Positions 1,746 to 7,208 of a stretch of DNA of 23,959 nucleotides are shown here, piece after piece. Origin of the DNA: a virus; IMG/VR virus record IMGVR_UViG_3300006072_000046, positions 1-23,959 of that record; one strand, given 5' to 3'. Each line of letters starts with the position of its first letter. The stretch's first letter is position 1. The notes beneath the pieces are model-generated. The model saw only the letters and a program-made list of their open reading frames with translations, did no database searches and was not told where the DNA came from. The translations under genes were made by a program, and so were the position numbers.

Positions 1746-1821
1746 ACTATTTATTAGTATGAAAAAACAATACCTAAACGAAGTTAAGCAACTTCAAAAG
1801 ATAGCAGGTCTTTTAAAAGAA
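1745..1821 (+). repeat. Promoter plus targeting-peptide cassette, copy 1
   Basis: This block contains a 13-nt stretch (1745-1757, GACTATTTATTAG) identical to 2118-2130, and a 57-nt coding stretch (1765-1821) matching 2154-2210 at 54 of 57 positions. All three differences are silent third-codon changes. It encodes the N-terminal 19 residues shared by the two neighbouring proteins. Confidence 0.8.
1747..1755 (+). promoter_or_regulatory. CTATTTATT motif upstream of the 117-aa gene
   Basis: CTATTTATT begins 12 nt before the ATG at 1759, overlapping the end of the upstream gene by none. It is identical to the motif at 2120-2128 and one base different from CTATTTATA. Candidate altered late promoter. 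Confidence 0.45.
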
Positions 1822-2112
1822 GACGACTATAGTGATGATGATAATGATTCTGAAGAAAGTTCTGACAGTGAATCTGAGGATACAGATGCGATGGGTGGTA
1901 TTAACGAGAAAAGCATAGACCCTAACAAAAGAAAGGTTTATATAAAAGCTGCTATTGAAATGGCTCAATCCTATGCTAAGAGAGGTTATACTCAAGACGA
2001 AGCTGTTAAAGATGCTGCACAAGGTATTAAGAATGTATACGGATATGAATTAACAGACGTTGATAGACAAGCAGTAAAGCACTTTGTACCTGTACACGGT
2101 AACTTTAAATAG
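1759..2112 (+). CDS. Putative packaged internal protein with targeting peptide and acidic linker, 117 aa
   Basis: Residues 1-21 form an amphipathic helix ending L19-K20-E21, which fits the L/I-x-E cleavage rule of the T4 prohead protease gp21 and looks like a capsid-targeting sequence of T4 internal proteins. Residues 21-43 are almost entirely Asp, Glu and Ser. The remaining part (about 50-117) is probably all-helical, with a central helix (YIKAAIEMAQSYAKRGYTQ) and a C-terminal segment ending HFVPVHGNFK. The first 19 shared residues recur in the next protein. Packaging in the capsid and release with DNA is inferred from this and from the neighbours; the function of the body is unknown. Expression is likely late, from the motif 12 nt upstream. 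Confidence 0.65.
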   Translation: MKKQYLNEVKQLQKIAGLLKEDDYSDDDNDSEESSDSESEDTDAMGGINEKSIDPNKRKVYIKAAIEMAQSYAKRGYTQDEAVKDAAQGIKNVYGYELTDVDRQAVKHFVPVHGNFK

Positions 2113-2117
2113 AAGTT

Positions 2118-2210
2118 GACTATTTATTAGCATAAAAATTTAAAATGAAGAATAAACAATACCTAAACGAAGTTAAGCAACTCCAAAAAATAGCTGGTCT
2201 TTTAAAAGAA
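2118..2210 (+). repeat. Promoter plus targeting-peptide cassette, copy 2
   Basis: This is the second copy of the block at 1745-1821: GACTATTTATTAG at 2118-2130 and a 57-nt coding match at 2154-2210. Between the two parts copy 2 has an extra A/T-rich stretch, which puts the ATG 25 nt from the motif instead of 12. Confidence 0.8.
2120..2128 (+). promoter_or_regulatory. CTATTTATT motif upstream of the 180-aa gene
   Basis: CTATTTATT begins 25 nt before the ATG at 2145 and shares 13 bases with the element before the preceding gene. Candidate altered late promoter. Confidence 0.45.
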
Positions 2211-2687
2211 GGCCATGATATGGAAGAAGAAAGCATGGGAGTTGATCAAGATAAAATTAACAACGATGTTAAGCAGCTCATAGTAATGTCGATTCGCCAC
2301 TTTAATGGACTTGCAAAACAAGGAGATCTTACATCTGATGACTTTGCAAATGGTAATCTTCTTGGTTACATGGAGTCGTTTGACGACAGTGCGGATGATG
2401 ACTTTGACTTAACTCCAGAAGAATCATCAGCTTTTAGTAGTGTTTGGCAAAACGTTATGAAAAAAGCAAAAGCTGAAGCAGCTGCGGGTGGACTTAATAC
2501 ATTAAAAGATTATGTAAGTTTTCTTAATAAAGAAGCTGCTGGATTAGGAGAATCTAAAAGTGACAATTTAAACGAATGGGATCCTGATAAAGATTGGGAT
2601 GAAACCGACGACGAAGAAGAAGATGACGATAACGGTATGCCAAGTGATGAAGAATTATGGGGTACATCTCGCTCTAAGAGAAGATAG
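2145..2687 (+). CDS. Putative packaged internal protein with acidic tail, 180 aa
   Basis: Residues 4-22 repeat the targeting peptide of the preceding protein and end L20-K21-E22 followed by Gly, an exact match to the gp21-type L-x-E|G site. The middle (about 36-135) is helical and contains two acidic patches. Residues 145-170 are very acidic, and the C terminus switches to basic (SRSKRR). Known T4 internal proteins carry such cleaved N-terminal peptides. The body matches nothing I recognise. The gene starts after a CTATTTATT element and ends 21 nt before a terminator hairpin, so it may be a single-gene late unit. Confidence 0.65.
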   Translation: MKNKQYLNEVKQLQKIAGLLKEGHDMEEESMGVDQDKINNDVKQLIVMSIRHFNGLAKQGDLTSDDFANGNLLGYMESFDDSADDDFDLTPEESSAFSSVWQNVMKKAKAEAAAGGLNTLKDYVSFLNKEAAGLGESKSDNLNEWDPDKDWDETDDEEEDDDNGMPSDEELWGTSRSKRR

Positions 2688-2746: not shown

Positions 2747-3766
2747 ATGATCAAGCTGATTGATATTTTAAAAGAGATAAAGGAAGGGGCAAAAGTTACC
2801 TTTGATGATGCCGGCAACGCTAGCAAAATTGAGATAGCTTATAAGCCTATTGACGGCGAACAGTTGAATACATATAGTGGAGTTACTACGACGAATAGTT
2901 ATAAGGTCTATTATAGCCTAGAATCAGCTCCAGATCAAACTAATATTAAAAAAGCTGAAGATTCTTTGAAATACGATTCTGATTTAATTAAACCAGCCGA
3001 CTTAAAAGATTTATTGAAAAATACACTACGCACAAGTATACCTAAAGTTGATTATATTGGTTATTTGGAATCTAAAGGGGGTTTAAATAAAATACTAATT
3101 GGTACAGTAAAAGAGCTTTATGGTGTATCTGAAGAGAATGTTGTAGAGGTTAAAAAAGTAGAGTATACTAATATAGATGATGCAGTTGATTGGGAATCCT
3201 TTAAAAAATTAACAGACCCTATTAAAAAAGAAGTTATTAGGTTTTTATATAAGACAGCAGAGGAAAAGCCTCCTTACAAAATTAAAAAGTCAAGTGGAAG
3301 AGAAGGCGGTGGTACACAATCTATTATAATAAGACAGCTACATTCTAAATATGACTTAGGTTTAAACCCTAATCTTAAGAATAAATCCTTACCTCCAATT
3401 TACGATGTATTAGTTAAGTGTATAACGCAAGGTAAGACTTTACTTATAGTAGATGATAATATACATGCTGGAATAGATTTTTATAAGATATTTCAAAATG
3501 TAGAAGAGCTTGTTAATAAATTAAAAGAAGCTAATGCAGCACCTACTGCTGATGAAGAAGGAGTTGATGAAAAGTTAGCTGCTTGGAAAGCAAATCTAAA
3601 AGCTAAAAAATCAGCTCATATACAAGGTGAAATTCAAAAATTAGAGGGTATTCAAAAAATGCGTAGAGAAAGAGTTACTATAATGAATAATGGCTTAAAT
3701 GGAAGTAATGAGCGTATATTTGGATATGTATTATATAATTTAGATCCTAAAGACGTTAAAAGATAA
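2747..3766 (+). CDS. Phosphoribosyltransferase-like protein with capsid-targeting-like N terminus, 339 aa
   Basis: Residues 229-244 (GKTLLIVDDNIHAGID) fit the PRPP-binding loop of type I phosphoribosyltransferases: two or more hydrophobic residues, Val, Asp236-Asp237, then a small-residue/Gly turn. The family usual is VDDxxxTGxT, so here His240-Ala241 replaces the typical Thr and the motif is a variant. An upstream segment (DYIGYLESKGG, 102-112) could be the N-terminal core strand and loop. The N terminus MIKLIDILKEIKEG carries L-K-E and then I-K-E|G, matching the gp21 prohead-protease site. Residues 272-312 look like a charged coiled coil inserted before a last strand (IFGYVLYNL). A role on nucleotides or in base salvage is possible, as is a packaged effector; the substrate is unknown. 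It is followed 2 nt later by a nuclease-like gene. Confidence 0.55.
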   Translation: MIKLIDILKEIKEGAKVTFDDAGNASKIEIAYKPIDGEQLNTYSGVTTTNSYKVYYSLESAPDQTNIKKAEDSLKYDSDLIKPADLKDLLKNTLRTSIPKVDYIGYLESKGGLNKILIGTVKELYGVSEENVVEVKKVEYTNIDDAVDWESFKKLTDPIKKEVIRFLYKTAEEKPPYKIKKSSGREGGGTQSIIIRQLHSKYDLGLNPNLKNKSLPPIYDVLVKCITQGKTLLIVDDNIHAGIDFYKIFQNVEELVNKLKEANAAPTADEEGVDEKLAAWKANLKAKKSAHIQGEIQKLEGIQKMRRERVTIMNNGLNGSNERIFGYVLYNLDPKDVKR

Positions 3767-3768
3767 AA

Positions 3769-4830
3769 ATGTATCGCTTGATAATAGAACATATAATCCG
3801 TCAGATTCTTCAAGAAGAAGAATTTACAAATTTACAAACCACCTCTTTTCGTGATCGTCCAACTAGAATTGAAACTTTTATTAATAAGCTAAAGACTAAC
3901 TCTGAATTTACTCTACGAAATGGAAACACTGTTAGTTTCAAGGATGCTAAGATTACAAAGAAAAATCCAGTTGTAGATCCAGAAAATGAAGAAAAGGAAC
4001 CTCAAAAAGAATTTACTTTTTTAGATAGTAGTGATAAGTTTGCTAAGGAATTAAATGAATTAGAACCTGGTGATAGATTATCGTTGACAGGTAGTGATGA
4101 AAAGACTTATAAAGTAAGTGATTTAGCAAAAACACAGGAACTTGGGGGTAAGGGTACGGGAATTGAACAACCTGGTGAAAAATCAGAAAATATTCAATTA
4201 CAAACTTTAAATGCAGGACTCAAAGGTGGTCCGTTTGATATTGAAGTAATCGACTATAAAGGTAAACCACATATATTAAAGGGAATTAAAGAAGCTATTC
4301 CAATTAAAGGACAACATAAAGCTGACATAGCTCTTGTTAGAATTGACGGTAGTCGTGTTTATATTCAGCTTAAACAAATAAAACATCGTCAGCTTGAAGG
4401 ATTAGTTAGATCTAATTTTGCTAAAGATACAGAGGGTAAAAAATTAATTATAGCTTTTGCACAAAATGTAAAAGAGGAGTTGAAAAAAGGAAGACTTAAA
4501 GAACCGTACGTAAAACCAATAAAAAATAAAAGGTTACAAAGGTTAGCAGTATATGGCACTGATAGTGGTAAAATGTTGGAAGATGAAAGTACAGTGGCTA
4601 TGTATTGCATTGGAAATGCAAAACTTACAGATGATAAAGAAGGAGTTAAAAAACTAACAGCCGATACTATCTACTTCTATCCCGATGTTCCAACAGATAA
4701 TCCTCCAGTACTAGCAGCTATTGATAAGGGAGGTAGATTCCAAAAAATGCCTAGTAAAGAAAAGACAGAAGAAAGACTTGCTGATGTGCGGTTGGGGGTA
4801 TACTTTAAAAATTCGGTTCCTAATCACTAA
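3769..4830 (+). CDS. PD-(D/E)XK nuclease-like protein with targeting-like N terminus, 353 aa
   Basis: The central part reads HKADIALV (183-190), then VYIQLKQ (197-203): Asp186 followed by Gln200-x-Lys202 on the next strand, a common Q variant of the PD-(D/E)XK metal-dependent nuclease core. A preceding segment (YKVSDLAKTQELGGKGTG, 114-131) with Glu and Gly-rich residues and the helix after it (138-150) resembles regions I recall from phage nuclease-like proteins. That recall is unverified. The N terminus (residues 1-17) is an amphipathic helix ending I13-L14-Q15-E16, like the neighbours' targeting peptides. The substrate may be DNA; catalytic activity is inferred. The ATG is 2 nt after the upstream stop, so it is co-expressed with the phosphoribosyltransferase-like protein. 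Confidence 0.5.
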   Translation: MYRLIIEHIIRQILQEEEFTNLQTTSFRDRPTRIETFINKLKTNSEFTLRNGNTVSFKDAKITKKNPVVDPENEEKEPQKEFTFLDSSDKFAKELNELEPGDRLSLTGSDEKTYKVSDLAKTQELGGKGTGIEQPGEKSENIQLQTLNAGLKGGPFDIEVIDYKGKPHILKGIKEAIPIKGQHKADIALVRIDGSRVYIQLKQIKHRQLEGLVRSNFAKDTEGKKLIIAFAQNVKEELKKGRLKEPYVKPIKNKRLQRLAVYGTDSGKMLEDESTVAMYCIGNAKLTDDKEGVKKLTADTIYFYPDVPTDNPPVLAAIDKGGRFQKMPSKEKTEERLADVRLGVYFKNSVPNH

Positions 4831-4842: not shown

Positions 4843-5289
4843 ATGATTAAGCTAATTGACCTCATAGAAAATGATACTACTCCAGGAGGGAAAAAGAAGA
4901 TGCAAAATTTTCTTTACCGTGGTTCTAAAGATCAAATAGCACAAGCTCAGACAGCAAATACAGATAATATTTTAGATCCTAACCATAATAGCTTTAACGT
5001 AGTGGGTAGTAAACCTGGTACAATTGAAGGAAAAGGACCACTAGATACTTCTGATCATCCTGAAGATAGTAACCCTTCTCGTGCCTTTAATTTAGGGTAT
5101 CCTTGGGATTTTCAAGATCCTAGTGGTATATTTGAAGATGAAGAAGGTCCTTTTCAAAAAATAAGAGGAATTTTAATAGGTAGAGAATTTCAAACTATGG
5201 ATGATATTGCTAAAATGGCTTCAAGATTAAGACAAGCAGGTATCACTCAAAGCGACATTGAAGCTTTTATAATAAATTATATAATATGA
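4843..5289 (+). CDS. Unknown protein with targeting-like N terminus, 148 aa
   Basis: The first residues MIKLIDLIEN nearly repeat the start of the phosphoribosyltransferase-like protein (MIKLIDILKE) and contain L-I-E, so a packaging peptide is suspected. The middle (about 30-110) is rich in Asp, Asn, Pro and Gly, with low predicted structure. The C terminus (about 110-148) forms two short helices (TMDDIAKMASRLRQAG; SDIEAFIINYII). No catalytic motif is seen. The stop overlaps the next ATG by 4 nt (ATGA), indicating translational coupling. Confidence 0.6.
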   Translation: MIKLIDLIENDTTPGGKKKMQNFLYRGSKDQIAQAQTANTDNILDPNHNSFNVVGSKPGTIEGKGPLDTSDHPEDSNPSRAFNLGYPWDFQDPSGIFEDEEGPFQKIRGILIGREFQTMDDIAKMASRLRQAGITQSDIEAFIINYII

Positions 5290-5774
5290 CGACTTTCAAT
5301 ATGAAACAATGGCTTATGGAAAATAAGCAAGGAATGTACTCCAAGACTCTTTTAAGTGAAATGAATCCTAATGATATGGGACAAGCACAACAAAGTGCTG
5401 ACCAAGAAATGGAAACTCAAGAAACTGATGATAGTGATGATTTGCAAAATCAACAAATGGATGTAAGTGAAGAATCTGTAGGTTGGGTTGATAAAGTTGC
5501 TCCTGCTGATTCTAAATTAAGTGAATATTTAGAGAAGTTAAAAAATCATGATTGGTATTATATGATGTCTGATGACAATAGAGTTTATGAAAAAGGAGAG
5601 CAAGAAAAAAATAATTTAAAACAATTATATTCCCAATTAACACCGGACGAAAAACAAACCGCTTTAGACGCCTTTAAAGAGCAGTATACGTACATTTACA
5701 ATCCAAAGCATTACCCTAATGCTGAGCAAAATATCAAGTACTTAACTACTGATACTTTTAAGGGTTGTATCTAA
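5286..5774 (+). CDS. Unknown acidic protein with targeting-like N terminus, 162 aa
   Basis: The product opens with an amphipathic segment (MKQWLMENK) and has L-L-S-E at residues 22-25, a possible gp21-type site, although weaker than in its neighbours. Residues 28-65 are Gln/Asp/Glu-rich and probably disordered. The C-terminal half (about 75-160) has helices and many Tyr/Lys residues (KLSEYLEKLKNHDWYYMM; LTPDEKQTALDAFKEQY). It is coupled to the preceding gene by a 4-nt overlap. No known domain is recognised. It closes the run of six putatively packaged proteins. Confidence 0.58.
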   Translation: MTTFNMKQWLMENKQGMYSKTLLSEMNPNDMGQAQQSADQEMETQETDDSDDLQNQQMDVSEESVGWVDKVAPADSKLSEYLEKLKNHDWYYMMSDDNRVYEKGEQEKNNLKQLYSQLTPDEKQTALDAFKEQYTYIYNPKHYPNAEQNIKYLTTDTFKGCI

Positions 5775-5889: not shown

Positions 5890-6204
5890 ATGAAAAAAAT
5901 AAAGGTTGTACGGCTAGGTGGTTGCCATTGGTGTGAATCTTTAACATCGCAACTTAATGAATTAGAAATTCAATATGAAAGTATTGATGCTGATGAGAAT
6001 GGAAGCTTAGCTGATAGTTTAGAAGACTTACTTAATACTAATTACTATCCTATTGTAATTATTGAAACTCCTACGATCTTTTACTATCTTTACCGACCGT
6101 CTGATGCTAAGGATGCTGGATATACTACCTTAAATAATAAAGCTACTAAAATTGGATGCCTGACTTTGTCAGCTTTCGTTACACAAATTAAACAGTTAAT
6201 ATGA
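5890..6204 (+). CDS. Glutaredoxin/thioredoxin-like protein, 104 aa
   Basis: A thioredoxin-fold start (KKIKVVRLGG) leads into the redox motif C12-H13-W14-C15, followed by a helix (ESLTSQLNELE). A likely cis-Pro lies at Pro54 in NYYPIVII. Length suits a glutaredoxin, and T4 itself encodes NrdC, a glutaredoxin that donates electrons to ribonucleotide reductase. The reductase partner is not in this window, so that link is inferred from known phages. The C-terminal half diverges from typical glutaredoxins. The stop overlaps the next ATG by 4 nt, so the next small gene is co-translated. Confidence 0.7.
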   Translation: MKKIKVVRLGGCHWCESLTSQLNELEIQYESIDADENGSLADSLEDLLNTNYYPIVIIETPTIFYYLYRPSDAKDAGYTTLNNKATKIGCLTLSAFVTQIKQLI

Positions 6205-6434: not shown

Positions 6435-7208
6435 ATGTTATCAGCGGAAAAAATACAAAGCAATTTAGAGCAGTTCTATTCTAATATAGATCTTTATATT
6501 GCCGAACCTCGCAGAACTCAATTACTAGACCTTTACAAGGGTCAGGAAGAAGTATTGGCCTTAGCTCCAGCCTCTTCTAAAGCATCCTTTCACAACTCTT
6601 TTCCTGGTGGTTTTGTTGACCACATTAACCGAGTAGTAGCCGCTTCTTTAGCGGTTAGTGCTGTTTGGCTAGAGTTTGGTGCAGATACAGCTACTTTTAC
6701 TAGAGAAGAATTAGTATTTTCAGCAATTAACCACGACTTAGGTAAGTTAGGTTTATTTGGTAAACCACGTTATATTCCTAATGATTCAGAGTGGCATGTG
6801 AAAAATCAAGGTGCTAATTACAAGCCTAATGCAGAACTTCCTTTTCTACCTGTCCAAGACAATTCACTATTTATACTTCAATCAGCAGGCATTCCACTTT
6901 CAGTAAATGAATATATTGCAATTAAAATTCACGATGGACTTTATGATGATGGTAATAAAGCTTACCTTATATCAAGTCAAAACGAGTCTAAGTTAAGATC
7001 ATCTCTAGCTCTTATTTTACATCAAGCAGATATGCTAGCTTCGAGAGTAGAATGGGAAAAAGAATGGTTAGATAAAGTAGGTGTTGCAAAACCTAAAGAA
7101 GTAAAACCTACAACTCCTGGACAATTTAAACAGAGTGCAGATGCTAAAAAGTTGCAAAGTATTGGCAAAGGTAACCCTGGTTTATTAAACGCATTAAAAG
7201 GATTATAA
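6435..7208 (+). CDS. HD-domain metal-dependent phosphohydrolase, 257 aa
   Basis: The HD metal-binding pattern is visible in order: His63 (VDHINR), His100-Asp101 (INHDLGK), His166 (KIHDGLYDDG) and His196/Asp199 (ILHQADMLASRVE). This is the signature of HD-superfamily phosphohydrolases, which act on nucleotides, cyclic nucleotides or nucleic acids. The N terminus is helical, and the last about 45 residues are Lys/Pro/Gln-rich and probably flexible. Such proteins occur in T4-like phages, and nucleotide metabolism is the best guess, but the substrate cannot be read from the sequence. Cleavage of a signalling nucleotide in host defence is an alternative. It is the first gene of a unit with a host-like promoter and is followed 1 nt later by a membrane protein. 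Confidence 0.75.
   Translation: MLSAEKIQSNLEQFYSNIDLYIAEPRRTQLLDLYKGQEEVLALAPASSKASFHNSFPGGFVDHINRVVAASLAVSAVWLEFGADTATFTREELVFSAINHDLGKLGLFGKPRYIPNDSEWHVKNQGANYKPNAELPFLPVQDNSLFILQSAGIPLSVNEYIAIKIHDGLYDDGNKAYLISSQNESKLRSSLALILHQADMLASRVEWEKEWLDKVGVAKPKEVKPTTPGQFKQSADAKKLQSIGKGNPGLLNALKGL

Follow-up and report, generated by a model that had tools for sequence, protein, structure and literature searches.

When T4-like phages degrade host DNA, the work is usually credited to enzymes made after infection. The chloroviruses package their own restriction enzymes, which are thought to degrade host DNA; this degradation starts within five minutes, presumably through the packaged enzymes, and the same enzymes are reported not to be responsible for the exclusion of other viruses (PMC7019647). 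The targeting peptides of phage T4 are 10-19 residues long, and fusion to them suffices to package foreign proteins, such as EcoRI and staphylococcal nuclease, into heads (PMC9026906). The gene considered here lies in a 23,959-nucleotide stretch of viral DNA (the window), and its product (the window protein) was originally predicted to be a PD-(D/E)XK nuclease-like protein possibly carried in the capsid. On the whole, this interpretation is supported.

The open reading frame is real and has the limits given in the original prediction (Table 1), and residues D186, Q200 and K202 are found where they had been placed, in the stretch HKADIALVRIDGSRVYIQLKQ. The next in-frame Met after residue 1 occurs only at about residue 269, and therefore the N-terminal leader described below is not the product of a mis-called start. 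The sole alternative start able to shorten the frame is a TTG at codon 4.

Table 1. Positions of the nuclease-like gene, its features and its neighbours in the window, with examples of the DUF6267 gene in relatives (contig:positions).
Feature	Position	Strand	Remarks
Nuclease-like ORF	3769..4830	+	ATG at 3769, stop ending at 4830; 353 aa, uninterrupted
Probable capsid-targeting leader	3769..3816	+	MYRLIIEHIIRQILQE, residues 1-16; predicted prohead-protease cut after LQE
Family-wide N-terminal module	3853..4131	+	Residues 29-121, FINKLKTNSEFTL..NG ... YKVSDLAKTQELGGKG; conserved in family alignments
PD-(D/E)XK core (predicted)	4174..4485	+	Residues 136-239: helix with E140, three strands, then helices
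E140	4186..4188	+	Glu on first core helix; E in 85/91 members
D186	4324..4326	+	Putative metal-binding Asp of PD motif (here K-A-D); D in 90/91 (one gap)
Q200-L201-K202	4366..4374	+	(D/E)xK position; S-H-K in nearly all relatives
Q208	4390..4392	+	Six residues after K202; Q in 89/91 members
Neighbour	1759..2112	+	Leader MKKQYLNEVKQLQKIAGLLKE, common to gene 2145
Neighbour	2145..2687	+	Leader MKNKQYLNEVKQLQKIAGLLKE, nearly that of gene 1759
Neighbour directly upstream	2747..3766	+	Leader MIKLIDILKEIKE, capsid-leader-like
Neighbour directly downstream	4843..5289	+	Leader MIKLIDLIE
Neighbour	5286..5774	+	Leader MTTFNMKQWLMENKQGMYSKTLLSE, resembling immuto_194 and immuto_195
DUF6267 examples	L149:5923-7155, L165:4421-5653, L164:4418-5644, L207:4313-5539		

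In a PHROGs profile search, the window protein is matched by phrog_13937 over residues 83-326 (E 2.9e-8). Stenotrophomonas phage DLP6 gp065, first met as a marginal tblastn match, matches the same profile end to end (4e-147) and gives a blastp E of 3e-7 against the window protein in a single pairwise comparison. Viral contigs were scanned from DLP6 and two relatives, and the best 80 of 192 confirmed relatives were kept. A profile of 89 DLP6-like proteins, from which the window protein was left out, recovers it with E 1.5e-19 over profile positions 2-283. The window protein almost certainly belongs, as a very divergent member, to the DLP6 gp065 family (phrog_13937), which is a large, unnamed family of T4-like phages. 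It is 17-29% identical to the other members (about 25% overall), and in the family tree its branch is very long, at about 6 changes per site.

A scan of bacterial genome contigs with the family patterns gave no cellular relative, and the family therefore looks phage-borne. The window protein has no match in Pfam or NCBIfam, and tblastn of it against phages at E 1, as well as viral contig scans, found nothing. Its only PDB sequence match (thrombospondin, E 0.006) was judged to be chance, as were matches in the Srd region of Acinetobacter phages (E 3-6), and the family profile yielded only chance matches among PDB sequences. T4, KVP40, the tested cyanophages, HTVC008M and Caulobacter Cr30 gave no phrog_13937 match, and neither did the phages closest by baseplate gene; of the 80 viral contigs related through that gene, none has a homologue within the stretch examined.

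The family-wide N-terminal module also occurs in Desulfovibrio phage 7757 (L156:4001-5221), where it is joined to another core, one with NISLKNGAVSQVGQVGG, and it may therefore be mobile. The gene preceding this fusion starts MKSFRQFILEYK.

AlphaFold2, supplied with a 46-sequence alignment, gave a model of the window protein with a mean pLDDT of 81.7 and a pTM of 0.65, while a single-sequence model (pLDDT 36) was discarded. The alpha-beta-beta-beta-alpha core on which the original prediction staked itself is present in the model, in the order helix 136-150, strands 167-178, 187-191 and 196-202, and helices 213-219 and 221-239. D186 opens one of the two strands of a hairpin, and Q200/K202 close the other; read from the hairpin register, the three residues would be adjacent. 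The window protein very probably has the PD-(D/E)XK fold.

Among the predicted viral structures of BFVD, Foldseek matched the model to R.CviJI (P52283; E 3.3e-10, probability 1.00), the NYs1 endonuclease (E 2.3e-8) and Nt.CviQII (Q0ZLZ5; E 5.3e-7, probability 1.00), and also returned phage relatives. As far as the predicted structures go, the closest named relatives are the chlorovirus endonucleases R.CviJI and Nt.CviQII. Foldseek against the PDB gave no match below 1e-3. A second-look structural aligner placed MspI first (Z 6.8 over 162 residues) and HhaI next (Z 6.6 over 152 residues), Z values of 6-7 being in the range where a match can reflect a common arrangement; in its lower PDB rows, Holliday junction resolvases, other restriction enzymes and EcoRV are mixed with unrelated folds. 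The search against restriction-endonuclease-like families that had been proposed as a check thus leads to R.CviJI, Nt.CviQII, MspI and HhaI.

Profile models of defence enzymes point in the same direction for the family. The PADLOC type II restriction endonuclease model PDLC03459 matches 45 of the 46 family members (best 1.1e-16), and the type II nicking-endonuclease model matches 23 of the 46. In one relative (L159), the match to the nicking-endonuclease model PDLC03396 is to the catalytic stretch 135-158, which by alignment is D...S-H-K. The window protein itself has no match to PDLC03459 or PDLC03396, and for this reason it is called related to the R.CviJI/Nt.CviQII group rather than a member of it. 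The relative in S-CAM7 was annotated by its depositors as 'type-2 restriction enzyme CviJI'.

In an alignment of ten representatives, E140, D186, K202, G211, G267 and G282 are invariant. Among the 91 aligned family members, 90 have Lys at 202; at position 200, Ser occurs in 89 and Gln in the window protein alone. The residues named in the original prediction amount to more than a coincidental pattern, and its Q variant of the core is real, but the Q is peculiar to the window protein, the family having S-x-K. The family motif K-S-D...W-I-S-H-K...Q-Q-W-G-G reads K-A-D...Y-I-Q-L-K...Q-L-E-G in the window protein; no other member replaces the conserved Ser200 by Gln or His201 by Leu.

By profile and by alignment, the homologues start with MANLS or MASLS at about window residue 19-20, and residues 1-18 (MYRLIIEHIIRQILQEEE) are therefore an addition. 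This leader of 16-18 residues is modelled by AlphaFold2 as a helix (residues 2-15) and contains a gp21-type [LI]xE site (L14-Q15-E16), while differing from the textbook T4 motif. The likeness that had been noticed between this N terminus and the packaging peptides of the neighbours is borne out. An [LI]xE within 30 residues of the start is found in all six genes between 1759 and 5774 versus 6 of the 21 other genes of the window (hypergeometric p about 0.003), a count that lends weak support, because shuffles show that composition alone often yields such a site. Genes 1759 and 2145 have a common leader, MK(N)KQYLNEVKQLQKIAGLLKE, and immuto_188 of Flavobacterium phage immuto, which is among the closest isolates by baseplate gene, has MKKQILSEQFRRMQKLAGIITE. 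The immuto_194 and immuto_195 genes are located shortly before the terminase and head genes, and the immuto prohead protease starts MNNPLLINVTPFKGLLTE, also ending in LxE. The window leader probably acts as a capsid-targeting peptide.

Two other observations concern this part of the window. Gene 2747-3766 has a stretch, TLLIVDDNIHAG, that is similar to the PRPP-binding motif known from phosphoribosyltransferases. A glutaredoxin-like gene (5890-6204; PF00462, E 1.4e-5) lies between the leader-bearing genes and a phosphohydrolase-like gene (6435-7208).

The same arrangement is seen in relatives. In contigs L176-L181, MKTFKGFITE is directly joined to MASLSPKE, that is, a T4-like targeting peptide to an intact ancestral start, and other versions of the leader occur on L182, L164, L165, L199, L209, L207 and L211; leader-bearing relatives begin, for example, with MERFKSFITEA, MISFKRFLNEEK, MLSFKSFLNEEK or MLNLKSFKEFLLEA. 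That relatives carry T4-type capsid-targeting peptides strengthens the capsid idea. In the family tree the tag requires a minimum of five changes (gains or losses), and for two of these the branches that force them are well supported. Fifty of the 58 members in the tree have no leader, so that packaging would not be the usual state of the family. The homologue in PA5oct appears to be the reverse case, because it is leaderless and, unlike several of its neighbours, carries no annotation of detection in virions by mass spectrometry.

In phage G010 (194.6 kb), 10 proteins have this type of leader, compared with a mean of 0.8 and a maximum of 5 in 2000 shuffles, and in an internal-methionine control the leader type appears in 2 of 1160 cases. 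The leader-bearing set includes the nuclease and the next gene, DUF6267. The members of the set (L257-L266, at 23-40 kb and elsewhere, several at 37.3-39.9 kb) have MxSFKxYLxE-type leaders and look like capsid cargo. A gp21-type prohead protease (Peptidase_S77) is encoded by all ten relevant genomes tested, including immuto, in a survey that covers the relatives, the window being a fragment without head genes.

DUF6267 (PF19782) adjoins the nuclease-like gene in many relatives and was found in 29 of the 46 records searched. It has invariant K-x-D-G-x-P, QGD and EG-x-V stretches similar to the motifs of nucleotidyltransferases (ligases), and in many of the copies a T4-type capsid-targeting leader is present. 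The DUF6267 profile gave no ligase match in the PDB, and the ligase reading is therefore one drawn from the motifs only. It may tentatively be proposed that T4-like phages have repeatedly made a chlorovirus-type (CviJI/nicking) endonuclease family into capsid cargo, often tagging DUF6267 likewise, and that a cut-and-seal pair may enter the host with the genome. If true, this would be a counterpart to the restriction enzymes that algal viruses package.

A separate family is present in Pelagibacter phage HTVC008M (L106:3767-4822) and in Melnitz (L147:2980-4062), with the pattern KTD...ISLK...QLMSG. In HTVC008M the protein has the leader MLSFTGYSNLSEA, and a DUF6267-like gene comes next. Homology of this protein to the window protein is not claimed (hhalign probability 0.2); the family may be another capsid-targeted nuclease-like one.

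For the window protein, the following course is proposed. The leader MYRLIIEHIIRQILQE would bind the prohead core during assembly, and a gp21-type protease would cut after LQE, leaving a mature N terminus nearly equal to that of the untagged relatives. The enzyme would be packed alongside the genome and ejected with it. E140, D186 and K202 (with Q200 and Q208) would bind metal, and host or competitor DNA would be nicked or cut before phage expression. On balance, the window protein is probably a capsid-cargo PD-(D/E)XK endonuclease of a T4-like phage family related to R.CviJI/Nt.CviQII. Early action on host or competitor DNA is possible, and is put forward with some reserve.

Three other explanations have to be weighed against this one. 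The protein may be packaged but catalytically dead, its fold being kept as a DNA-binding internal protein that fills the prohead core or coats the DNA, or that blocks host restriction enzymes as T4 IPI does. One of the leader-bearing internal proteins of T4 does inhibit a host restriction enzyme (PMC9026906). Moreover, the very long branch, together with the unique S200Q and H201L replacements, suggests that the activity of the window enzyme may be changed or lost. However, E140, D186, K202 and Q208 are all kept despite the low overall identity, whereas an inactive protein that had diverged this far could be expected to have lost them, and MspI, the top PDB match, is active with Asn at the position equivalent to Q200. 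A dead enzyme is therefore considered unlikely, and the window protein is reasonably likely to be an active nuclease.

It is still less likely that the protein is not packaged at all but is a late or replication-linked nuclease (for nicking, recombination or repair), in which case the N-terminal helix would simply belong to the protein proper. Such a role would suit the majority of relatives, which have no leader and are found beside helicase, MazG, DUF6267 and nucleotidyltransferase genes, and also the untagged PA5oct homologue. In the window, however, the gene is within a run of leader-like genes and outside any replication module, the leader is missing from the untagged relatives, and the leaders of the neighbours resemble those found close to the head genes in immuto, the nearest isolate. 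An equally improbable explanation is that of a phage restriction enzyme which mainly excludes competing phages rather than attacking the host, the phage's own DNA being modified. The relation to site-specific chlorovirus enzymes would fit it, as would the methyltransferases in G010 (PF00145) and in S-CAM3 and S-CAM7 (PF01555), but neither of these two families was found in DLP6, phiM12, S-CAM9, PA5oct or the 24-kb window. Since a methyltransferase of the two families tested is present in only some of the family phages, protection by methylation does not appear to be general. The chlorovirus report on exclusion (PMC7019647) also speaks against an enzyme that mainly excludes competitors.

The capsid-cargo reading has several consequences. 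An endonuclease family arriving inside the head would act earlier than enzymes made after infection. A packaged nuclease also raises the question of how it is kept safe beside the packed phage DNA, and the concern over its control expressed in the original prediction is reasonable. The chlorovirus link would connect two unrelated virus groups through one enzyme family, and possibly through one strategy. In addition, the joining of a targeting peptide to a start that is itself left intact may serve as a sequence rule for finding injected proteins, one that covers the ligase-like DUF6267 partner as well. A literature search, outside which many journals lay, gave no paper describing this phage family as capsid cargo or as a nuclease, which is not proof that no earlier description exists. 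A known fold and a known targeting device are here joined in a way that was not found described for natural phages.

Compared with its own family, the window protein is like DLP6 gp065 and the cyanophage and Sinorhizobium phage phiM12 relatives in its near-full-length homology, its N-terminal module and its active-site positions; these members have S-H-K and no leader, while the window protein has Q-L-K and a leader. Of the chlorovirus enzymes R.CviJI and the nicking endonucleases Nt.CviQII and Nt.CviPII, its predicted fold matches the first two across about 260-300 columns, and its relatives have the D...S-x-K stretch in common with the nicking-endonuclease model. In contrast to these enzymes, to which it is about 13-17% identical, it is phage-borne, has Q for S at (D/E)xK and an added leader, and is without a visible companion methyltransferase in the 24-kb fragment. 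MspI and HhaI, its best solved-structure matches, are bacterial restriction-modification enzymes with 12% identity to it.

The T4 proteins IPI, IPII, IPIII and Alt have, like the window protein, a short peptide at the N terminus that finishes with an [LI]xE-type site, and phages related to the window phage have the gp21-type protease. The internal proteins of T4 as listed in PMC9026906 include no nuclease, and EcoRI and staphylococcal nuclease are packaged by T4 only as engineered fusions. PBCV-1 differs from the window phage in being an algal virus whose packaging route does not use a T4-type leader and whose DNA is protected by methylation, but the proposed logic is the same as that of its packaged restriction endonucleases: the enzyme enters with the genome, and host DNA is destroyed within minutes (PMC7019647).
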